NCBI GenBank assembly: GCA_902800435.1
Contig: CADCEQ010000052.1
Span: forward strand, 1 to 20,419
DNA from: an uncultured Prevotellaceae bacterium
GTDB taxonomy: Bacteria > Bacteroidota > Bacteroidia > Bacteroidales > Bacteroidaceae
DNA length: 20,419 nt
Direction of reading: 5' to 3'
The notes below the pieces were generated by a model that had not been told where the DNA came from, did no database searches, and worked only from the letters and a program-made list of their open reading frames with translations. Shown here piece by piece: positions 4,834-18,312 of the stretch (its first letter is position 1; each line of letters opens with the position of its first letter). Made by a program: the position numbers and the translations under genes.

Positions 4834-5600
4834 TACCCTGTTTAGACGTGAAGGACGGCGAGACCGTCAAGGGCACGAACTTCGTCAACCTGCGTTCCGC
4901 TGGCGACCCTGTGGAGTTGGGCAAAGCCTACTCTGACCAAGGTGCCGACGAGTTGTGCTTCTTAGACATCACAGCGAGCTTTGAGGGCCGCAAGACCTTT
5001 ACCGAGATGGTGACCCGTGTGGCTGCTGAAATCAACATACCCTTCACCGTCGGCGGCGGCATCAACGAACTGGCCGACGTGGAGCGTCTGCTCTACGCCG
5101 GAGCCGACAAGGTGAGCGTCAATAGCGCTGCCATCCGTCGCCCTGAGCTTATCGACGAAATAGCCGGTCGGTTCGGCAGTCAGGTGTGCGTCTGTGCCAT
5201 CGATGCCCGACTCGACGAGGATGGCATTCCCGCTGGCGCGCCTACCCGTAGCCTTTGGCACTGCTACCTGAAGGGTGGCCGCGAGCGTACGGAGCGCGGG
5301 CTCTTCGAGTGGGCACACGAGGCCCAGGAGCGTGGTGCCGGCGAGATACTCTTCACGTCGATGAACCACGACGGCGTGAAGGAAGGCTATGCCAACGAGG
5401 CTCTGCGCGAGCTGGCTGATAATCTGTCGATACCCATCATTGCCAGTGGCGGAGCCGGTTGTAAAGAGCACTTCCGCGACGCCTTTACGCTTGGTCACGC
5501 CGACGCTGCCCTGGCTGCCAGCGTCTTCCACTTCGGCGAGATTCCGATACCCGAACTGAAACAATATTTAAAGAACGAAGGAATAAACGTAAGATTATGA
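4812..5600 (+). CDS. hisF: Imidazole glycerol phosphate synthase cyclase subunit HisF
   Basis: A 262-residue barrel enzyme that uses ammonia, normally from HisH, to turn PRFAR into imidazole glycerol phosphate and AICAR. Catalytic Asp12 ([10 protein letters not shown]) and Asp131 (CAIDAR) are present, as are the phosphate-binding GGGIN (81-85) and ASGGAG (211-216). Between residues 134 and 165 it differs from relatives I remember: there appear to be a few extra residues ([16 protein letters not shown]), and the usual Thr-Gly after the GGR motif reads RTERGLF. The rest of the barrel is standard. It overlaps hisA by 22 nt and hisIE by 4 nt (ATGA). With HisH damaged, HisF might depend on free ammonia, as the subunit can do in vitro in other bacteria; that is inference here. 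Confidence 0.96.
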
Positions 5601-6244
5601 AAATAGACTTTGACAAGTGCGGCGGTCTCGTACCTGCCATCATCCAGGACGCTAAGACGAAGAACGTCCTGATGTTAGGATATATGAACAAGGAGGCCTA
5701 CGACAAGACCGTGAAGACGAAGAAGGTCACCTTCTGGAGCCGCTCGCGCAACTGTCTGTGGACGAAGGGCGAGACCAGCGGCAACTTCCTGAACCTCGTC
5801 GACATCAAGATTGACTGCGACAACGACACGCTGCTGGTTCGCGCTATACCCGACGGCCCTACCTGCCACAAGGGCACCGACACCTGCTGGGGCGAGGACA
5901 ACGAACAGAATCCGCTGCTCTTCCTCACCGAGCTTCAGGACTTCATCAACCGCCGCCACGAGGAGATGCCCGAGGGCTCTTACACCACCTCGCTCTTCAA
6001 GGACGGCATTAACCGCATGGCTCAGAAAGTGGGCGAAGAAGCACTTGAAGCCGTCATCGAAGCCACCAACGGCTCTAACGAGAAATTGGTCTACGAGGTC
6101 AGCGACATGATGTACCACCTCATCGTACTGCTCACCAGCAAGGGCCTGCGCATTGAGGACGTCGCCGCCGAACTGGCCAAGCGTCACGACCCCAACTGGG
6201 ACAAGAAGCGCCGCGCCGCCAAGGCTGCTGGCACAATGGAATAA
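5597..6244 (+). CDS. hisIE: Bifunctional phosphoribosyl-AMP cyclohydrolase / phosphoribosyl-ATP pyrophosphatase HisIE
   Basis: A 215-residue fusion doing steps two and three of histidine synthesis. The N-terminal cyclohydrolase part (about 1-105) shows the metal-binding DCDND (73-77) and cysteines Cys74, Cys90 and Cys97, with [10 protein letters not shown] (46-55). The C-terminal pyrophosphatase part (about 108-210) is a MazG-like all-alpha fold with the [13 protein letters not shown] motif (144-156; Glu147, Glu148, Glu151) and VSDMMYHL (168-175). The ATG overlaps the hisF stop. Its TAA begins a heptamer repeat array that fills the gap to ftsE. hisG, hisD, hisC and hisB are not in the window, so the his genes of this organism are split. 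Confidence 0.96.
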
Positions 6245-6275
6245 ATAGTAAACCGAAAATCGTAAATCGTAAATC
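6241..6275 (+). repeat. Five-unit heptamer array between hisIE and ftsE
   Basis: Five tandem 7-bp units: ATAAATA, GTAAACC, GAAAATC, GTAAATC, GTAAATC, then CC and the ftsE ATG. The first unit contains the hisIE stop TAA. Because 7 is not a multiple of 3, the TAA triplets fall in more than one frame. The same unit occurs on the sense strand in the rnfC-rnfD and rnfD-rnfG gaps. Confidence 0.85.
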
Positions 6276-6277
6276 CC

Positions 6278-6994
6278 ATGGTGCTGATAAATTATAAGAA
6301 CGTCAACGTCTACCATAAGGACGGCGACACCGTGCTCCGCAATGTGGACTTTCACGTTGAAGATGGCGAATTCGTCTATCTTATCGGAAAGGTTGGCTCA
6401 GGCAAGAGTTCGCTGCTGAAGACCATCTACGGTGAAATGGACATCGACGAGGCCGACGAAGCCACCGTCCTCGAGTACGACCTGCTGACCATCCGCCGCA
6501 AGCAGGTACAGGACTTGCGAAAGAAGATGGGCATAATCTTCCAGGACCTGCAGCTGCTCAGCGACCGCAGCGTCTACCGTAACCTGCGCTTCGTCATGAA
6601 GGCGACGGGCTGGAGAGACAAGGAGCGTATCAACAACCGCATTGACGAGGTGCTCGAACAGGTAGGCATGGCCGACAAGAAAGACCGCATGCCCCACGAG
6701 CTGTCGGGCGGCGAGCAGCAGCGCATCAGCATTGCCCGTGCTCTCTTGAACGCGCCTGAGCTCATCGTTGCCGACGAGCCCACCGCCAACCTCGACTATG
6801 AGACGGCCGACACCATCATCCAGCTGCTGCGCGAGATCTCGCTTCGAGGCACCGCCGTCATCCTGACCACCCACAACCGCACGCTGCTGAACAAGTATCC
6901 CGGCATTGTCTACCGCTGTAGCGACGAGCGGCTGGAGGAAGTCACCAACGACTTCAACCAGATGCAGTTATCGGAAGAAGAACTGAAGGATTGA
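6278..6994 (+). CDS. ftsE: FtsE-like ABC transporter ATP-binding protein
   Basis: A 238-residue ABC ATPase. Walker A is GKVGSGKS (37-44), the Q-loop Gln is Gln89 in IIFQD, the signature is LSGGEQQR (142-149), Walker B is LIVADEP (162-168), and the switch His is His199 in TTHN. Overall similarity is to FtsE, which with membrane partner FtsX controls cell-wall hydrolysis at the division septum. The general LolD/MacB group of small ATPases is the main alternative. No ftsX or other permease is nearby, which is unremarkable if ftsX is elsewhere. A 20-residue acidic tail (NDFNQMQLSEEELKD) follows the ATPase core. It sits between his and lys genes, flanked on both sides by tandem-repeat gaps. Confidence 0.78.
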   Translation: MVLINYKNVNVYHKDGDTVLRNVDFHVEDGEFVYLIGKVGSGKSSLLKTIYGEMDIDEADEATVLEYDLLTIRRKQVQDLRKKMGIIFQDLQLLSDRSVYRNLRFVMKATGWRDKERINNRIDEVLEQVGMADKKDRMPHELSGGEQQRISIARALLNAPELIVADEPTANLDYETADTIIQLLREISLRGTAVILTTHNRTLLNKYPGIVYRCSDERLEEVTNDFNQMQLSEEELKD

Positions 6995-7040
6995 TAAAAG
7001 GTAAAAAAGTAAAAAGGTAAAAAAGTAAAAAGATAAAAAC
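6993..7040 (+). repeat. Six-unit octamer array between ftsE and lysC
   Basis: Six 8-bp units: GATAAAAG, GTAAAAAA, GTAAAAAG, GTAAAAAA, GTAAAAAG, ATAAAAAC. The first overlaps the ftsE TGA; the last ends 9 nt before the lysC ATG at 7050. Every unit contains TAA, and the 8-bp period moves it through all three reading frames. No TAnnTTTG promoter is present in the gap. Confidence 0.88.
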
Positions 7041-7049
7041 ATATTGATT

Positions 7050-8369
7050 ATGAAAGTAATGAAATTCGGCGGCACCTCTGTAGGCACGCCACAAAGAATG
7101 AAGGAAGTAACGCAGCTCGTCGTCAAGTCGGGCGAGCCTGTTTTCGTCGTACTCTCGGCCATGTCGGGAACAACCAATTCGCTGGTCGAAATCTCTGACT
7201 ACCTCTACAAGAAGAACGCCGACGGCGCCAACGAGGTCATCAACCGTCTGGAGGCCAAGTACATGAAGCACGTCGAGGAACTCTACACCCAGGACGAAAC
7301 GAAGCAGACCACACGCGACTTCCTGAAGGAGGAGTTCAATTTTCTCCGCTCGTTCACCAAGGAGATTTTCACGTCGTTCGAGGAGAAGGCCATCGTGGCC
7401 CAGGGCGAGATGATGTCTACCAACATGGTGGTGAACTACATGAAGGAGCAGGGCATCAAGGCCGTGCTGCTCAACGCCCTTGACTTCATGCGCACCGACA
7501 AGAATGCCGAGCCCGACCCCGTCTATATCAAGGAGAAGCTGCAGGCCGTCATGCAGGAGAACGAGGGCCAGCAGGTCTACGTCACCCAGGGCTTCATCTG
7601 CCGCAATGCCTACGGCGAGGTCGACAACCTGCAGCGCGGCGGCTCCGACTACACCGCCTCGCTCATAGGAGCTGCTCTGAACGCCGAGGAGATTCAGATT
7701 TGGACCGACATCGACGGCATGCACAACAACGACCCGCGTGTGGTCGACAAGACGCAGCCCGTCCACCAGCTGCAGTTCGAAGAGGCTGCCGAGCTGGCCT
7801 ACTTCGGTGCCAAGATTCTGCACCCGACGTGTGTGCAGCCCGCCAAGTACGCCGGCATCCCCGTCCGCCTGCTGAACACGATGGACCCCGATGCCGAGGG
7901 CACCACCATCTCCAACCAGACGGAGTACGGCAAGATCAAGGCCGTCGCCGCCAAGGACAACATCATCGCCATCAAGATCAAGTCGAGCCGCATGCTCCTG
8001 GCCACTGGCTTCCTGCGGAAGGTGTTCGAGATTTTCGAGTCCTACCAGACGCCCATCGATATGGTCTGCACGTCAGAGGTCGGTGTCTCGATGTCTATCG
8101 ATAATAGTGCCCACCTTGGAGAGATTGTCGACGAGCTGAAGAAGTACGGCACCGTCACCGTCGACACCGGCATGTGCATCATCTGCGTTGTCGGCGACCT
8201 CGACTGGTCGAACATCGGCTTCGAGACGCGCGTCATGGATGCCCTGAAGAACATCCCCGTGCGCATGATCAGCTACGGCGGTTCCAACTACAACATCTCA
8301 TTCCTCATCAAGGAGGAGGACAAGCGCCGCGCCCTGCAGAGCCTAAGCGACAACCTGTTTAATTCTTAA
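7050..8369 (+). CDS. lysC: Aspartate kinase, monofunctional
   Basis: A 439-residue enzyme phosphorylating aspartate, the entry step to lysine, diaminopimelate, threonine and methionine. The kinase domain starts MKVMKFGGTSVG, with RGGSDYTA (196-203) and WTDIDG (218-223) as substrate/nucleotide-site motifs. Two ACT-type regulatory domains follow (about 305-372 and 375-436), the usual place for end-product feedback. There is no fused homoserine dehydrogenase. A TTG 6 nt upstream would add two residues, but the ATG at 7050 begins the conserved MKVMKFGG and is preferred. It is 8 nt from lysA. The leader holds only the octamer array, with no room for a lysine riboswitch. Confidence 0.95.
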   Translation: MKVMKFGGTSVGTPQRMKEVTQLVVKSGEPVFVVLSAMSGTTNSLVEISDYLYKKNADGANEVINRLEAKYMKHVEELYTQDETKQTTRDFLKEEFNFLRSFTKEIFTSFEEKAIVAQGEMMSTNMVVNYMKEQGIKAVLLNALDFMRTDKNAEPDPVYIKEKLQAVMQENEGQQVYVTQGFICRNAYGEVDNLQRGGSDYTASLIGAALNAEEIQIWTDIDGMHNNDPRVVDKTQPVHQLQFEEAAELAYFGAKILHPTCVQPAKYAGIPVRLLNTMDPDAEGTTISNQTEYGKIKAVAAKDNIIAIKIKSSRMLLATGFLRKVFEIFESYQTPIDMVCTSEVGVSMSIDNSAHLGEIVDELKKYGTVTVDTGMCIICVVGDLDWSNIGFETRVMDALKNIPVRMISYGGSNYNISFLIKEEDKRRALQSLSDNLFNS

Positions 8370-10333: not shown

Positions 10334-10578
10334 CGAGGGAAAGGGACAAAACGGGGACAAAGGGACAGGGACATTAAGGTTTTTATTTTTCCCATTTCAA
10401 GACATTAGAGCAAAGTACACGATAGACAAGGAAGGACAACCAGATTTGAATATCTAATTATAGTACTATATTATTTATATATTATATATATTATAATATA
10501 TATAATATATAAAAATTCCCCTTCTAAAATTTGCAGGAACCTTAATGTCCCTGTCCCTTTGTCCCCGATTTGTCTCGT
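10333..10578. repeat. Foldback element: long inverted repeat between convergent genes
   Basis: A perfect 30-bp inverted repeat, arms 10352-10381 and 10538-10567 (left arm starts CGGGGACAAAGGGACAGGGA), encloses 156 bp. The pairing extends outward with one mismatch through GACAAA (10345-10350 / 10569-10574) and, after a 6-nt bulge, ACGAG/CTCGT, giving outer limits near 10333 and 10578. The arms are themselves small arrays of GGGACA. The interior is AT-rich and holds two further palindromes. There is no ORF for a transposase, so it looks like a non-autonomous MITE- or REP-like element, or a giant terminator structure. It occupies most of the 366-bp gene-free gap between the methyltransferase and rnfA. 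Confidence 0.9.
10474..10513. repeat. AT-only perfect 40-bp palindrome
   Basis: Arms of 20 bp meet with no loop at 10493/10494. Every base is A or T and all 20 pairs match. A 12-bp palindrome TATAGTACTATA lies just before it at 10459-10470. Both are nested inside the foldback element. Such a sequence could extrude a cruciform or melt easily. Confidence 0.92.
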
Positions 10579-10582
10579 AGCA

Positions 10583-10623
10583 CTACACGAAAACGAGGTG
10601 GCGCTACACGAAAACGAGGTGGC
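10583..10623. repeat. 21-bp tandem duplication
   Basis: The unit CTACACGAAAACGAGGTGGC plus G occurs twice in a row (10583-10603 and 10604-10623), with 20 of 20 shared bases identical. It lies between the foldback element and the terminator hairpin. A length of 21 bp would keep frame, but no start codon or ribosome site precedes it, so coding is not supported. Confidence 0.9.
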
Positions 10624-11887: not shown

Positions 11888-11904
11888 ACCTTTTTCGTTT
11901 TAAC

Positions 11905-11970
11905 CTCGAATTTCACGAATTGCACGAATTGGCTACGCATGATCAATTAGTAAAATTAGTGTAATTAGTG
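11905..11970 (-). repeat. Two opposed 3 x 9-bp arrays between rnfG and rnfE
   Basis: Read in the rnf direction, three nonamers CACTAATTA, CACTAATTT, TACTAATTG (11970-11944) are followed after 12 nt by CAATTCGTG, CAATTCGTG, AAATTCGAG (11931-11905). The second array is an imperfect reverse complement of the first, about 20 of 27 positions, so the transcript could fold into one stem with a 12-nt loop. Confidence 0.85.
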
Positions 11971-11974
11971 GTCG

Positions 11975-12604
11975 TTATTTATTTGTTTGCTTTGTGGCTC
12001 CCGACTCAGCATCTGGGGCGGGCGTAGCCTTGTAGGCGTTATAGGCATTGTTGACGGCCAGCAGGAAGGCGCGGCTGGTGATGGTCGAGGCGGTGATGGC
12101 GTCAACCTGTCCGCCGTCCTTCGAGACGGTCAGCGGCTCAGCGGGCGTCTTGCCGATGATGTCGCCCTTCTCGCCGCGCTGGAACCACTTGTCGGCCTTG
12201 GCACCGAGTCCCGGCGTCTCAGCATGCTCGAGCAGCGTGTAGCCGAGAATCTTGCCGTCGGGGTCGAAGCCTACGAGCACCTTCAGATTGCCGCCGAAGC
12301 CGCCGGTGGTCGACTCAACAGCGGCACCAAGGTCGCGGCCCTGGGCATCCTTGGCCTGATAGAGAATAAAGGTTAGCTCCTTGCCCTTGGCGTCGGTCTG
12401 GCGGACGGTGTCGGTCTGGGCGACAACGATGTTGTCGCATAGAAGGACAGACTGGATGCCGGCGGCGAGGGCCTTTTCCTTCTGCTGGGCGATGGGGCCT
12501 TCGGTCAAGTGGTTGACGAAGGCCAGGATGGCACCCATGACGACGGCGACACCCGTGAGCACCAGAGCCATATTCAGTAGTGTAGATTCAAGTTTCTTCA
12601 CCAT
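11975..12604 (-). CDS. rnfG: Rnf complex FMN-binding subunit RnfG
   Basis: A 209-residue protein with one N-terminal membrane anchor (about 10-32) and an FMN-binding domain on the outer face. The flavin attachment motif reads DAITASTITS (168-177), with Thr174 as the expected acceptor for phosphoester-linked FMN placed by ApbE; the usual Gly-Ala is Ala-Ser here. EHAETPGLGAKAD (126-138) is the other conserved stretch. The C-terminal tail (about 193-209) is polar and contains DAESGAT (198-204), which fits the same attachment motif and is discussed as a finding. It is the fifth gene of the operon counting rseC. No apbE is in the window. Confidence 0.95.
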   Translation of the reverse strand: MVKKLESTLLNMALVLTGVAVVMGAILAFVNHLTEGPIAQQKEKALAAGIQSVLLCDNIVVAQTDTVRQTDAKGKELTFILYQAKDAQGRDLGAAVESTTGGFGGNLKVLVGFDPDGKILGYTLLEHAETPGLGAKADKWFQRGEKGDIIGKTPAEPLTVSKDGGQVDAITASTITSRAFLLAVNNAYNAYKATPAPDAESGATKQTNK

Positions 12605-12607
12605 AGG

Positions 12608-12643
12608 GATTTTCGATTTACTGATTTTCGATTTACGATTTAG
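12608..12643 (-). repeat. Five-unit heptamer array between rnfD and rnfG
   Basis: In the rnf direction: CTAAATC, GTAAATC, GAAAATC, one extra A, GTAAATC, GAAAATC, then CCCT and the rnfG ATG. The last sense codons of rnfD (AAA TCG TAA) are part of the array. The same unit and the same 1-nt insertion between units 3 and 4 occur in the rnfC-rnfD gap. Confidence 0.87.
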
Positions 12644-13631
12644 TTGGGACTTCGCCGAAGCGCTTGGGTTTCACGTAGTTGTTGATGAGCGGCGTAAAGG
12701 CGTTCATGATGAGAATGGCGAACGACATGCCCTCAGGATAGGCGCCCCAGTTGCGGATGATGACCGTCAGCAGACCGATGCAGACGCCGTAGATAAGCTG
12801 TCCGCGCGGAGTCATGGGCGACGTAACGTAGTCGGTAGCCATGAAGATGGCTCCGAGCATCAGACCGCCAGAGAGGACGACGCTGACAGGGTCGGCATAA
12901 GCAGGACTGGCCAGATGGAGCAGTCCGGCGAAGACGAACACCGTAGCGATGATTGAGACGGGGATGTGCCACGTGATGATTTTGCGCCACAGCATGAAGG
13001 CCAGGCCGAGCAGCAGCGCCAAGGCGCAGATCTCGCCCATAGCGCCGGCCCCGTCGGGATGGTTGCCGAGCAGAAGGCTCAGCGAGTCGGGCAGGCGGTC
13101 GAGCACCGAGGCATCGCCACTCTTGATGGCTTCCTTCATGATGGCCAGCGGCGTGGCCCCCGTCTCGGCGTCAAGATAGCTCGTGAGCTGGCCAACCTTC
13201 GGCCAAGTGGTCATCTGTGCAGGGAAGGCCACAAGCAAGGCGGCACGTCCGACGAGTGCTGGGTTGAAGATGTTGTTGCCCAGACCGCCAAACGGCATCT
13301 TAGCTACGCCGATGGCAAACAGCGCACCGATGATGATAATCCATACGGTCAGGTTCGACGGCAGGTTGAAGGCAAGGAGCAGACCTGTAAGGGCGGCTGA
13401 GCCATCCATTACCGTAGAGCGCTCTTGCTTCAGGACATACTTGCTGATGGCCCACTCCAACAGGACGCAGGCAGCCACACTCGTTGCCGTCACGACAACG
13501 GAACCCAGGCCGAAGAAGTAGAACGACACGAGCAGAGCGGGCAGCAGGGCGATGATGACGCCGTACATGTTGCGCTCGACGGTGTCGGTGCCGTGGGCGT
13601 GTGGTGATAATGATACAACTAATTTTCCCAT
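12633..13631 (-). CDS. rnfD: Rnf complex membrane flavoprotein RnfD
   Basis: A 332-residue membrane protein of the NqrB/RnfD family with roughly eight to ten hydrophobic segments. Covalent FMN is expected at Thr160 in the motif DAETGAT (154-160), a clean match to the ApbE attachment sequence. GGLGNNIFNPALVGRA (115-130) and ATDYVTSPMTPRGQ are conserved family stretches. It passes electrons between the membrane core and RnfG. The last three codons and the stop lie inside the heptamer repeat that follows, so its C-terminus (TKS) may have been set by the array. The next gene, rnfG, starts 28 nt later. Confidence 0.96.
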   Translation of the reverse strand: MGKLVVSLSPHAHGTDTVERNMYGVIIALLPALLVSFYFFGLGSVVVTATSVAACVLLEWAISKYVLKQERSTVMDGSAALTGLLLAFNLPSNLTVWIIIIGALFAIGVAKMPFGGLGNNIFNPALVGRAALLVAFPAQMTTWPKVGQLTSYLDAETGATPLAIMKEAIKSGDASVLDRLPDSLSLLLGNHPDGAGAMGEICALALLLGLAFMLWRKIITWHIPVSIIATVFVFAGLLHLASPAYADPVSVVLSGGLMLGAIFMATDYVTSPMTPRGQLIYGVCIGLLTVIIRNWGAYPEGMSFAILIMNAFTPLINNYVKPKRFGEVPTKS

Positions 13632-13636
13632 CTATA

Positions 13637-13672
13637 TATTTACGATTTACAGATTTTCGAATTTCGATTTAT
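13637..13672 (-). repeat. Five-unit heptamer array between rnfC and rnfD
   Basis: In the rnf direction: ATAAATC, GAAATTC, GAAAATC, one extra T, GTAAATC, GTAAATA, then TATAG and the rnfD ATG. The first unit contains the rnfC stop TAA. The architecture (7+7+7+1+7+7) equals that of the rnfD-rnfG array. Confidence 0.87.
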
Positions 13673-15036
13673 TTCTTTGCAGCACGACTGCGGATGATGC
13701 CCATGACGGTCTGCTTGCCCTGACGGATGTTGTCGAGCAGCGGACGGTGGGCAGGACAGGTGAACTGACAGGAGCCGCACTCAATGCACGAGGTGATGTC
13801 CTCACGCTCGGCACGCTCCCAGTTCTTCACCTCCGAGAGCTTGGCCAGCAGGTAAGGCTCAAGGCCCATCGGACAGGCGCCGACGCACTTGGCACAGCGG
13901 ATGCAGGGCAGCGGCTCGCTGCGGCGGGCATCGTCGCCAGAGAGGATGGTCACGGAGTTCGTGCCCTTGCAGACGGGCACCTCGTCGGTGGTCAGTGCCT
14001 TGCCCATCATCGGACCGCCGGCCAGCAGCTTGTTGTCGCCGTCGGGCATACCGCCACAGACCTCGATGAGGTCCTTCATTGGCGTACCCATGCGGACGAG
14101 GAAGTTGCCGGGATTGGCCAGGCGCTTGCCCGTAACGGTGGTATAGCGCTCGAACAGCGGCTTGTGCTTCATCACGGCCTCGTAGACGGCGTAGGCCGTT
14201 CCGACGTTCTGGACGATGGCACCTACGTTGACGGGGATGGCGGGCGGAGCAGGCACCTGGCGGTTGATGACGGCATCGACGAGCTGCTTCTCGCCGCCCT
14301 GCGGGTAGCGCTGCTTCAGGGGGACTACTTCGACGTGGTACGTCGAAGCACCGAACTTCTCGGCGCACTTCTTGGTGAGCAGGTCGATGGCGGCGGGCTT
14401 GTTGGTCTCGATGCCGATGTAGCCCTTGCTGACCTTGGTGGCCTTCATGAGCAGTTCGAGGCCCACGAGAATCTCGTCGGGATGCTCCATCATCAGACGG
14501 TAGTCGGCGGTGATGTAAGGCTCACACTCCACGGCGTTGATGATGACGCACTCGGCCTTGGCCGTCGGCGGCGGGGTGAGCTTGATAAACGTGGGGAAGC
14601 CGGCACCGCCCATACCCGTAATGCCTGCCGTCTTCACGCGGTTGATGATTTCCTCGGGAGTCAGTTCGGGGTGGTCGCCGACGGTCTCTAACTTGTCAGA
14701 GCGGTCGATGCTCTCCTCCCACTCGTCGCCTTCCACATTAATAATAATGGCGGGCTTGCGGTAGCCAGTGGCATCGACAACGGTGTCAATCTTAAAGACG
14801 GTACCGCTGACGCTGCTGTAGATGGGCGCCGACACGAAGCTGCCTGCCTCGGCAATGAGCGTACCGACTTTCACCTTGTCGCCCTTCTGCACAACAGGTG
14901 AGGCTGGAGCACCAATGTGCTGGCTCAGCGGGAAGATGGCCTGCTTGGGCAGTGGGGCTGTCTTCGTGGCCACCTCATGGGTCAGCTTGTTCTCATCAGG
15001 GTGGATGCCACCTATACTGAATGTCTTGATATTCAT
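13669..15036 (-). CDS. rnfC: Rnf complex NADH-binding iron-sulfur subunit RnfC
   Basis: A 455-residue peripheral subunit that exchanges electrons with NAD(H). It has an N-terminal barrel-sandwich-like part, a flavin/NADH-binding domain with GMGGAGFPTF (141-150) and QGGEKQL (246-252), an SLBB-like region, and two [4Fe-4S] motifs: Cys378, 381, 384, 388 and Cys417, 420, 423, 427. The start at 15036 (MNIKTFSIGGIHP) is chosen over an in-frame one at 15132: the longer form only repeats rnfB sequence, the ATG overlaps the rnfB stop as ATGA, and a strong AAAGGAGG lies 8 nt before it. The usual C-terminal repeat extension of some gammaproteobacterial RnfC is absent. Confidence 0.96.
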   Translation of the reverse strand: MNIKTFSIGGIHPDENKLTHEVATKTAPLPKQAIFPLSQHIGAPASPVVQKGDKVKVGTLIAEAGSFVSAPIYSSVSGTVFKIDTVVDATGYRKPAIIINVEGDEWEESIDRSDKLETVGDHPELTPEEIINRVKTAGITGMGGAGFPTFIKLTPPPTAKAECVIINAVECEPYITADYRLMMEHPDEILVGLELLMKATKVSKGYIGIETNKPAAIDLLTKKCAEKFGASTYHVEVVPLKQRYPQGGEKQLVDAVINRQVPAPPAIPVNVGAIVQNVGTAYAVYEAVMKHKPLFERYTTVTGKRLANPGNFLVRMGTPMKDLIEVCGGMPDGDNKLLAGGPMMGKALTTDEVPVCKGTNSVTILSGDDARRSEPLPCIRCAKCVGACPMGLEPYLLAKLSEVKNWERAEREDITSCIECGSCQFTCPAHRPLLDNIRQGKQTVMGIIRSRAAKK

Positions 15037-16964: not shown

Positions 16965-17894
16965 TTACAGACCGTCAATCCCTTCGGCATACATCGACAG
17001 GGACTGGTCGTCGCGCTCGTCATCGCCCATCTCGATATACGGATGAGCGTCAGGACGCATCATGTTGACACCCATGCGGTTCATGTGCTGGTTGGCAAAC
17101 GTCATCTCAGCACCAAACAGGCAGATGGTCCACGAAATCTGCACCCAGAGCATGAACAGCGGCAAGGCGGCAAACGAGCCGTAGATGGCGTTGTAGCCCG
17201 TCACCCACAACTGCGAGTGGACGTAGAACAGCTGCAGCCACTGAATGCCCACGCCGGCAATGATGCCCGGCACTATGGCACAACGCCACTCCACGTGGGT
17301 GTTGGGCATTGAGACATACAGGCCAATGAAGAGCAGCGACAGCAGTACGTAGGGCAGGAAGCCGAGCAGATGGCGCAGCGCCGAGCCGAGCATCAGCACG
17401 TCGGGCATGCTGCTCACCAACGTAGTCAGCACAACCGAGCAGCCCGTCGTGACGACAATAAAGATGGGGAACAGGAAGAACGCCGCCAGATAGTTGGTAA
17501 ACGAGCGGTAGAGCGAGCGCGAGCTGCTCACCTGCCAAATCTCGTTGAAAGTCTCCTCAATATTGTTCACCAGCATCAGCACCGTATAAAGCATGAATAC
17601 CAATCCGATGCCTAAGAACAGGCCGCTCTTGGTGTGGACGAGGTAACTGTTCACCCACTCGATGATGATGTCGGCGGCCTGCGGTTGTGAAGCGAGAATA
17701 TCGCGGAACCACACCTCTATATATTTGCTGAAGCCGAAGCCCCGCGCTATGGCAAAGACCACAGCCAGAATGGGTACAATGGCCAACAACGTGGAATAGG
17801 TCAAGGCCGATGCCTTGGCCATCACCCGCTTGGCCGTAAAGAACTTGATGGTCAGCGCGAGCGTCTTATACACACGATGCAACAGCTTCTTCAC
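16965..17894 (-). CDS. YihY/BrkB-family (UPF0761) inner membrane protein
   Basis: A 309-residue membrane protein with about six hydrophobic segments. Family stretches are KASALTYSTLLAIVPILAV (27-45), NNIEETFNEIWQV (109-121) and the C-terminal signature YNAIYGSFAALPLFMLWVQ followed by WTICLFGAEMTFANQ. Its function is not firmly known; a transport or membrane-integrity role has been proposed for relatives. Initiation is at a GTG (17894-17892), since an in-frame TGA lies 6 nt upstream and no ATG occurs before residue 25. The GTG lies in the last unit of a GTGAAG repeat array. The protein stops soon after the last membrane segment, whereas Bacteroidota relatives I remember are about 430-440 residues with a C-terminal winged-helix-like domain. 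Confidence 0.85.
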   Translation of the reverse strand: MKKLLHRVYKTLALTIKFFTAKRVMAKASALTYSTLLAIVPILAVVFAIARGFGFSKYIEVWFRDILASQPQAADIIIEWVNSYLVHTKSGLFLGIGLVFMLYTVLMLVNNIEETFNEIWQVSSSRSLYRSFTNYLAAFFLFPIFIVVTTGCSVVLTTLVSSMPDVLMLGSALRHLLGFLPYVLLSLLFIGLYVSMPNTHVEWRCAIVPGIIAGVGIQWLQLFYVHSQLWVTGYNAIYGSFAALPLFMLWVQISWTICLFGAEMTFANQHMNRMGVNMMRPDAHPYIEMGDDERDDQSLSMYAEGIDGL

Positions 17895-17923
17895 CCTTCA
17901 CTCTTCACTTCTCACTATTCACT
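17889..17923 (-). repeat. Five-unit heptamer array between rnpB and yihY
   Basis: In the transcription direction: AGTGAAT, AGTGAGA, AGTGAAG, AGTGAAG, GGTGAAG, exact 7-bp period. Each unit holds a TGA, so stops occur in all frames, and a GTG; the GTG in the last unit is the only plausible yihY start. GAAGGG just before it may act as ribosome site. Confidence 0.88.
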
Positions 17924-17931
17924 TCAAAAGC

Positions 17932-18312
17932 GGAAAGCACTGCCCCTGTAAGCCGGGTTCTGTACTGACAGCAAGTGCCAGCGTCTGTCATATATCTAAT
18001 CCGTAAGTCACCCCACGGCTTTAGCATTCTACCCTCCACCGCGTACCTACAGGTCACTCGGACGGACAGCCCTCAGACGGTGGTATACATGAACTTGCAG
18101 CCCCCAGATGGCACAGCACGACTGTCACCAGCCGCCTGGTGGTCTCTTACACCACCTTCTCACCCTTACCTTCCGAAGAAGGCGGTCGTTCTCTTCTGCC
18201 ATATCCAGCCGTCGCCGACTGCTTGCACTTTCACAAGTGGGGCGTCCTGCGCTGCCCGGACTTTCCTCTCGTGCCATAAAGACACCAGCGACAGACCGTG
18301 ACAGTGCTTTCC
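17932..18312 (-). ncRNA. rnpB: RNase P RNA (type A)
   Basis: The catalytic RNA that matures tRNA 5' ends, about 381 nt. Conserved blocks on the minus strand are GAGGAAAGTCCGGGC near the 5' end and ACAGAACCCGGCTTAC near the 3' end. The ends pair as helix P1: GGAAAGCACTG (18312-18302) with CAGTGCTTTCC (17942-17932), 11 bp without mismatch, which sets the boundaries. The stretch GTGAGAAGGTGGTGTAAGAGACCACC contains the P10/P11 specificity-domain signature. A TAnnTTTG element at 18325-18318 would start transcription right at the predicted 5' end. No hairpin terminator follows; the yihY gene begins 37 nt downstream on the same strand, so the 3' end is probably made by processing. Confidence 0.95.

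Follow-up and report, generated by a model that had tools for sequence, protein, structure and literature searches.

A stretch of 20,419 nucleotides (positions 1 to 20,419, forward strand) of contig CADCEQ010000052.1 (assembly GCA_902800435.1) from an uncultured Prevotellaceae bacterium, which is referred to here as a whole as the window, carries three five-unit arrays of a 7-bp repeat (TAAATCG, or GTAAATC) in the gaps between co-directional genes. They form part of a larger set of short tandem elements in rumen Prevotella/Xylanibacter, with families that occur many times over in a genome. Arrays of period 7 or 8 bp strongly prefer short co-directional gaps, where they typically reach from the stop codon of one gene to the start codon of the next. 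The TAAATCG/GTAAATC family is more than a repeat, since it has a five-unit layout of 35 nt that is common to unrelated gaps. The arrays of the window are the following:

6242..6275, + strand: five-unit TAAATCG-type array in the hisIE-ftsE gap, read directly as TAAATAG TAAACCG AAAATCG TAAATCG TAAATC; steps 7,7,7,7; the hisIE stop is the first TAA (6242-6244) and the ftsE ATG (6278) comes after 2 nt.
13637..13671, - strand: five-unit TAAATCG-type array in the rnfC-rnfD gap, read directly from 13671 to 13637 as TAAATCG AAATTCG AAAATCT G TAAATCG TAAATA; steps 7,7,8,7; the rnfC stop is the first TAA and the rnfD ATG (13631) comes after 5 nt.
12608..12642, - strand: five-unit TAAATCG-type array in the rnfD-rnfG gap, read directly from 12642 to 12608 as TAAATCG TAAATCG AAAATCA G TAAATCG AAAATC; steps 7,7,8,7; the TAA of unit 2 serves as the rnfD stop and the rnfG ATG (12604) comes after 3 nt.
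6996..7039, + strand: 8-bp array AAAAGGTA/AAAAAGTA of another family but of the same kind, in the ftsE-lysC gap; the orthologous gap of the nearest genome compared, G001, has no array.
17889..17923, - strand: 7-bp array GTGAAGA between rnpB and a BrkB-family gene, whose GTG start lies within the last unit.

An earlier note on this DNA had described the three TAAATCG-type arrays, and their units, strand, overlap with the stop codon and distance to the ATG are as claimed there, with coordinates off by at most 1 base. The extra nucleotide between units 3 and 4 was also confirmed in both rnf arrays and is not found in the hisIE-ftsE array. In the rnfD-rnfG array unit 1 is coding, since the rnfD stop sits in unit 2; the G001 copy of this array is identical, and further G001 loci carry similar stretches. 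The window contains 13 matches to TAAATCGTAAATC with up to 3 mismatches, when 2.28 ± 1.46 are expected and the maximum in 100 dinucleotide shuffles is 7. A chance origin of the arrays is ruled out by such shuffle comparisons in the window, in G001 and in the rnf loci. The three TAAATCG-type gaps have fold z values of 0.28, -0.01 and 0.71, that is, no stable hairpin, and the Rfam scan of the window at gathering score gave RNase P RNA as its sole match, so that an intrinsic terminator or a structured RNA is unsupported for these gaps. We also looked at traits like those of miniature inverted-repeat transposable elements (MITE) or repetitive extragenic palindromes (REP); the three arrays are direct repeats, and other families at times form inverted pairs.

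The periodicity is not confined to these three gaps. In 125 co-directional gaps of 15-100 nt, taken from 800 kb of G001 (28% of 31-letter words in common with the window), the excess over shuffles has a z of 13.6 at lag 7, 8.4 at lag 14, 8.2 at lag 21 and 3.9 at lag 8, while all values for lags 3-6 and 9-13 fall in the range from -2.8 to 1.6. The lag-7 z is 13.9 in the 72 gaps of the first 20 G001 stretches, compared with 1.2 in divergent gaps, -1.3 in the 13 convergent gaps and -4.1 in coding sequence. Three groups of rnf loci gave z values of 17.5, 10.3 and 8.7 at lag 7 and of 18.7, 7.1 and 5.0 at lag 8 in short co-directional gaps, with controls that were partly positive (5.8 at lag 8 for the divergent leaders of one group, 4.3 at lag 7 for the convergent gaps of another), and their long leaders reached at most 4.6 at lag 7 and 4.5 at lag 8. 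When single arrays were called at a lag score of 9, the G001 gaps held 18 arrays at lag 7 versus 0.4 expected; in the 376 gaps of 80 rnf loci the counts were 49 versus 1.1 at lag 7, 31 versus 1.3 at lag 8, 1 versus 1.2 at lag 6 and 8 versus 1.4 at lag 9.

A census over 2.7 Mb of loci chosen independently of the repeat found 0, 1, 65, 33, 6, 0 and 1 distinct arrays of periods 5 to 11, respectively, in co-directional gaps of up to 150 nt. The periodicity runs from about the stop codon to about the start codon. Arrays of period 7 or 8 were also found in longer co-directional gaps (27), convergent gaps (14), divergent gaps (18), sequence ends (20) and predicted genes (43). Genes make up 86% of a 400-kb sample of G001, yet only these 43 arrays of the census are genic. 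The tie to gene ends that the earlier note had proposed thus stands as a strong preference, and the 43 genic arrays contradict it as a rule.

The common layout was recognised in G001, where 14 regions gave 15 TAAATCG-family stretches (one region gave none), 14 of them in gaps and 1 in a predicted gene. Three of the 14 gap copies are orthologues of the window arrays, one of which was called as coding sequence by the gene caller and is placed by alignment in the hisIE-ftsE gap. Most of these stretches show, whole or in large part, TAAATCG WAAATCG WAAATC N GTAAATCG WAAATA. With a profile built from ten copies, the loci compared yielded 83 distinct stretches (E up to 1). Among the 56 copies with five scorable units at E up to 0.01, which come from several species and unrelated gaps, 40 have the steps 7,7,8,7 (an upper estimate), as do 2 of the 3 window arrays, and 43 of the 56 eight-nucleotide steps fall on step 3. 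The extra nucleotide therefore belongs to the TAAATCG family and not just to the two rnf gaps. The copies may also share their start context, GGTG at the start codon being found in 7 of the 14 G001 copies versus 5 of 143 other gaps (Fisher p 5e-6, with the reservations given below). The proposal of a dispersed element is thus borne out insofar as one architecture recurs at unrelated gaps, sense-oriented and in numbers far above those of shuffled sequence.

The orientation of the arrays is strongly biased. All 31 unselected TAAATCG matches in co-directional gaps (26 gaps, 15 loci, orthologues included) are in sense, and the same search gave 1 sense and 6 antisense matches in genes, 4 matches in divergent gaps and 2 in convergent gaps. 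Similarly, 25 AAAAGGTA arrays were found in 20 regions of genome G041, and the 18 that lie in co-directional gaps are all in sense. The sense:antisense ratios were 32:3 for AATTGAG, 36:3 for AAATGAG, 20:2 for AGTGAAG and 11:2 for AATAACGA. The earlier note had let its reading depend on counts above those of shuffled sequence and on an orientation bias, and both were found. The orientation follows the upstream stop more than the downstream start: classified by the nearest gene end, the purine-rich strand is the sense strand in 65:5 arrays at stops, 20:6 at starts, 11:7 in divergent leaders and 10:3 at convergent stops. In co-directional gaps longer than 150 nt the ratio is 9:3 near stops and 2:11 near starts, and the latter value may come from miscalled starts in signal peptides. 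The units are in register with the stop codon, which is repeated one period further on in 13 of 21 (G001) and 30 of 59 (rnf set) arrays that reach the stop, compared with 8 of 130 and 26 of 378 off-register positions, respectively.

All three frames are closed in 0.78 of 87 array gaps, versus 0.42 after shuffling and 0.34 of 220 non-array gaps. The excess of stops on the sense strand is missing in start-proximal arrays (12:9) and divergent leaders (7:9). The folding energy of the start region was -4.74 kcal/mol in 98 array gaps (-4.57 with the gap letters shuffled) and -4.73 kcal/mol in 242 non-array gaps (-4.43 with the gap letters shuffled), and hence an open leader finds no backing as a selected trait, folding being no weaker than composition gives. 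It has been described, in the parts of the two sources covered here, that Bacteroidota have no functional Shine-Dalgarno sites (PMC3155529; PMC6847099), and a translational role of the arrays, as all-frame stops ahead of a leader without such a site, is possible. The all-frame stop suggested by the earlier note holds in that array gaps close the three frames more often. This may be a function or a by-product; units without a sense stop exist (TGTTCAA, GAAAATC), and one window array follows a non-coding RNA. A separate observation is that, although Bacteroidota are held not to use such sites, GGAGG precedes rnfG in several Prevotella (rnfD-rnfG gaps of L034, L037, L043, L044, L047, L048, L049, L070, L073, L079, L083, L084, L098 and L101).

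Many families of units share these properties, and their range is uneven. Within one mismatch under rotation, 27.7% of the pairs of G001 lag-7 arrays are alike, compared with 2.0% for random 7-mers of gaps (maximum 7.0% in 40 draws), 3.4% for 7-mers located at stop codons and 7.5% for letter-shuffled units. The triple TAAATCG pattern is present in 9 of 40 relatives; counting overlapping matches, there are 35 in G057, 24 in G056 and none in 8 of 20 genomes. The AAAAGGTA pattern occurs in 18 of 20 genomes (G001 and the 19 behind the rnf loci), with up to 76 matches, and in 8 of 119 genomes sampled from the whole order, of which G001 has 16 matches and the remaining seven a single one each. In other genomes of the genus of G001 the signal is weak (50 gaps; z 2.5 at lag 7, 2.8 at lag 8), so that the trait is uneven within the genus, and at lag 7 the 37 gaps from other families of the order stay at a z of 0.6, without a signal. 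Arrays also become more frequent in gaps as the G+C content of the locus rises, with 4/52 array gaps below 45%, 24/71 at 52-54% and 12/55 above (rho 0.32, p 0.008, a correlation over related loci).

Some families form long inverted repeats. In X. rodentium (L277-L283) these have AATTGAG-type array arms and often an inner core, AATTATGATTA or AATTATGATAT; those of L277, L280, L282 and L283 lie between convergent genes and the other three between co-directional genes. The G001 locus L133 has inverted repeats with AATTGAG-type arms near 166 and 17164, both inside long predicted open reading frames (ORFs), which rules them out as convergent-gap elements.

At one and the same gap the arrays turn over between species. 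By species, the orthologous rnfC-rnfD gap has TAAATCG, AAAAGGTA, GTCAAATTGTGAAATA, AATGTTC or other arrays, or none, and L031, among the nearest by rnfD (90% amino acid identity), has the gap without an array. On an rnfD protein tree of 51 rows, 26 of them labelled, the array labels require 13 changes (least possible 4, shuffled mean 15.2), and the TAAATCG/TAAATTG label requires 8 changes for 8 rows. Between the window and G001, where they are 97.3% identical over 1601 nt, the rnfC-rnfD array has 2 substitutions and the rnfD-rnfG array 0, with no indel; where they are 85% identical, G001 has a rearranged hisIE-ftsE array and lacks the ftsE-lysC octamer array. The unchanged unit number in this one close pair, for two arrays at 97% identity, led us to reject phase variation. 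For pairs with a 4-fold-site identity of 0.40-0.50, the median gap identity is 0.58 if both gaps have arrays (55 pairs), 0.55 if one has (113 pairs) and 0.56 if none has (118 pairs), and 3/55, 2/113 and 7/118 pairs, respectively, are at least 80% identical. At a 4-fold-site identity of 0.50-0.60, this level is reached by 4 of 16 array pairs versus 0 of 27 non-array pairs; three of the four are pairs of the GTCAAATTGTGAAATA array, and one is L049/L053.

L036, L045 and L047 have exactly the same 36-nt GTCAAATTGTGAAATA array in the rnfC-rnfD gap, and L060 has it with a single base changed, in species whose flanking genes are 0.39-0.58 identical at 4-fold sites. The label of this array (with L066) requires 4 changes on the rnfD tree, at least 3 of them by supported branches, and the array has 1, 1, 2 and 1 matches in the four genomes. 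The array may be a conserved functional 36-mer or a transferred short patch, and the scattered positions on the tree favour transfer. Exact identity ends 3-30 nt beyond the gap, and long recombination tracts were rejected for the exchange of this array on account of these short runs. One conserved ancestral array was likewise rejected for the gap as a whole, since the families change between species, the GTCAAATTGTGAAATA array being the exception.

Inside genes the arrays are read differently. Ten of 13 period-7/8 arrays in the first 40 codons, which have their purine-poor strand as sense, encode, as judged by eye, hydrophobic leaders of the signal or lipoprotein kind (LPFYLFTFLPF, for example). 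G041 has three antisense AAAAGGTA arrays in early coding sequence with the same leader-like look (L299, L303 and L313). In L286, L287, L288, L290 and L294 the start is preceded by a sense array whose complement follows in the leader, an arrangement that would put the start codon in the loop of a hairpin; this refutes the idea that inverted array pairs always mark convergent genes, as the second arm is coding in these five loci. The leader cores read from the complement of arrays are of the FTFHFSLF and LPFYLFTFLP types (by eye, signal peptide or membrane anchor). Another 30 arrays sit beyond the first 40 codons of predicted genes or in genes that have an open end; about 24 of them have, by eye, the C-bearing, stop-free strand as sense, and the set may consist of true coding insertions or of errors in gene calling. 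AATTATGATTACC also forms the beginning of several G001 genes with lipoprotein-like starts, which may be susD-like.

From the period, position, orientation, families, layout and turnover described above we infer, with a probability of roughly 0.45, that short patches are copied from one site to another and are then subject to changes in steps of 7/8 bp and to a filter of coding constraint. A short patch would be copied over another site, the ends of a gap being anchored by the stop codon (TAA or TGA of unit 1 or 2) and by the A-rich start context, and the start codon would sometimes be carried along with the patch. Such anchoring would allow the sense orientation only and would replace the gap whole, so that sense orientation, stop register, whole-gap replacement and the sharing of start codons would be accounted for in one step. 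Copies would then change by 7/8-bp steps and point mutation. In gaps, bacteria that make no use of Shine-Dalgarno sites would tolerate them as A/U-rich spacers that carry stops, and any benefit, such as frame-independent termination or a free leader for re-initiation, would be secondary. In genes, only copies that present the stop-free strand and encode a tolerable peptide, signal peptides being an example, would survive; dispersal together with coding constraint would thus give the stop-free-strand arrays that are seen in genes. Short-patch double illegitimate recombination is a mechanism by which copying of this kind could take place, a phrase not found in the literature searched.

Several points weigh against this proposal. 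It does not account for the restriction to 7 and 8 bp or for the origin of the genic arrays, and the 30 arrays in genes that have no stop or start anchors imply that anchoring is not the whole mechanism. No copying event with donor, recipient and empty site was caught among strains, and no enzyme was identified. The orientation has exceptions: loci selected by the TAAATCG pattern have 23 sense and 2 antisense arrays, L082 has an antisense-type stretch adjoining a sense array, GTTAGAG is balanced at 9:9, and TGTTCAA is in sense 8 times and its complement TTGAACA 17 times. Moreover, 17 of the 31 TAAATCG matches begin more than 10 nt beyond the stop, and the GTGAAGA array of the window comes after a non-coding RNA. 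The value of 40/56 is biased upward, since copies with the steps 7,7,8,7 made up the greater part of the profile and the majority of the loci had been selected for a tandem pattern or for similarity to an array. GGTG is present in 0 of 3 element-like gaps of the same sample, and its test sets the tails of the 14 copies against windows round called starts. Finally, the rnfD tree has little resolution, with 21 of its 48 inner branches open and the bootstrap unsettled; the labels on it show slight clustering (14 of 200 shuffles gave a value as low), and the 36-nt identity in scattered species could come from strong conservation.

Alternatively, the array could be a functional translation signal that stops ribosomes whatever their frame and then provides an unstructured, A-rich leader for initiation or re-initiation without a Shine-Dalgarno site, with selection keeping orientation and layout. 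The three-frame closure, the strong sense orientation, the extreme local identity of one rnfC-rnfD array and the lack of functional Shine-Dalgarno sites in Bacteroidota all agree with this idea. However, orthologous array gaps are generally no more conserved than non-array gaps (0.58 vs 0.56), start regions fold no more weakly than with shuffled gap letters, the stop excess is missing where arrays lie near starts or in divergent leaders, some units have no sense stop, and most gaps have no array, and we consider it a rather unlikely explanation. A binding site for a protein that recognises RNA or DNA with a spacing of 7/8 nt, such as S1, a cold-shock protein or an RRM-type protein, would explain the common five-unit layout. 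The start-proximal heptamers of Beggiatoaceae have been read in this way, in the part of that work covered here (PMC4679880), the RRM type being our addition, but the sequence of the unit varies between families and between species at the same gap, and the downstream genes gave the impression of being unrelated, so that this explanation appears improbable.

Growth of each array on site from a stop-codon seed, by slippage only and with the 7/8-bp step set by the replication machinery, agrees with the register of the stop codon and with the sequence TAAATCGTAA, which may be such a seed and is found at the end of rnfD in relatives that include L055 and L077. An over-representation of heptamers in bacteria has been published together with a polymerase-footprint hypothesis, and with a hypothesis only in the portion of the paper considered (PMC4692102). 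Nevertheless, one family and one layout occur at unrelated gaps (the layout being biased by the profile), family sharing is 27.7% versus 2.0-7.5% in the null sets, the unit number did not change in two arrays between the window and G001 at 97% identity, the start-codon context GGTG is common to 7 of the 14 G001 copies, and a near-identical array is found in scattered species. We regard slippage only as quite unlikely, and the selfish slippage product considered in the earlier note is contradicted, as far as slippage alone is concerned, by the common layout and the cross-species identity. Patch copying could be extended to a new class of dispersing mini-elements of about 35 nt, without ends or genes of their own, which would move from gap to gap and between species by short-patch copying anchored in gaps on stop and start codons, and would overwrite operon junctions as cassettes. 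Their stop-bearing strand would serve as spacer, and the stop-free complement would be read through in genes and, at gene starts, would form the hydrophobic core of signal peptides, the same words thus seeding junctions and export signals. This extension is tentative, and we hold it to be somewhat doubtful.

The genes of the window around the arrays were assigned as follows:

5597..6244, + strand: hisIE (PRA-CH + PRA-PH, Pfam).
6278..6994, + strand: ABC ATPase (Pfam ABC_tran), for which the name ftsE is that of the earlier note.
7053..8369, + strand: aspartate kinase-like gene (AA_kinase + ACT, Pfam), here called lysC.
13669..15036, - strand: rnfC (Pfam RnfC).
12633..13631, - strand: rnfD (NQR2/RnfD/RnfE, Pfam).
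11975..12604, - strand: rnfG-like gene (FMN_bind, Pfam).

Pfam also assigns an Rnf-Nqr membrane subunit and a BrkB-family protein in the window, whose nearest named loci are from rumen Prevotella/Prevotellaceae. A bacterial RNase P RNA of class A (Rfam RF00010, 196 bits) lies at 17933-18307 on the - strand, with the GTGAAGA array directly 3' of the RNA. Two further repeats were noticed. The rnfG-rnfE gap (11888-11974, - strand) contains the 9-bp repeats ACTAATTNN and CAATTCGTG, which do not fit the 7/8 rule, and the convergent region 3' of the rnf operon has, at 10449-10512 and 10583-10623, an AT-rich TATATAT tract and a perfect 21-bp duplication, CTACACGAAAACGAGGTGGCG.

Intergenic heptamers are already known as a class. 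The simple repeats of contingency loci, which give phase variation, are likewise short tandem units beside genes; the Prevotella arrays differ in their stable unit number in one close pair, their degenerate units and their association with housekeeping genes. The STRR heptamers of heterocystous cyanobacteria are dispersed tandem repeats of heptamers too, C-rich and unlike the Prevotella units in sequence and composition. The GGGAATC heptamers of Xanthomonas and Nostoc are also intergenic; they are described, in the part of the source covered, as G-rich and G-quadruplex forming, and in Xcc 30% are on the same strand as the aligned ORFs and 35% on the opposite one (PMC4692102), whereas the Prevotella units are A/T-rich and mostly in sense, with no G-run in the three window arrays. 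Heptanucleotides of Calothrix are mentioned in the same part of that paper (PMC4692102). The nearest published kind are the TAACTGA direct repeats of Beggiatoaceae, some Cyanobacteria and five Bacteroidetes (MacGregor 2015, PMC4679880), which, in the passages covered, resemble the Prevotella arrays in gap position, direction and reverse-strand occurrence within ORFs. Those passages describe 10 sets inside ORFs, reversed, forward frames with stop codons and no pattern in the functions of the downstream ORFs, as well as one main unit, with some sets split by related 7-mers; they describe no common layout and do not name Prevotella (PMC4679880). The window arrays have the same forward orientation and end 2, 3 and 5 nt before the ATG, and the 31/31 sense matches agree with it. 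Their units are TAAATCG/AAAATCG and others, and not TAACTGA in exact direct repeats; the Prevotella arrays are also unlike TAACTGA in having many families, periods of 7 and 8, species-specific preferences and one family with a 35-nt layout. In the openly licensed literature searched, we found no account of such arrays in Prevotella, of the 7/8 restriction, of the 35-nt element or of the use in signal peptides.

The heptamer excess of rumen Prevotella is a strong one; it concentrates at a single kind of genomic site, is confined to 7 and 8 bp and goes along with dispersed copies whose layout can be recognised. As the arrays are strong and localised, their origin by slippage, copying or selection becomes directly testable in culturable rumen bacteria. 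The arrays bear on how genes are separated in operons without Shine-Dalgarno sites, and also on the origin of signal peptides from repeats.
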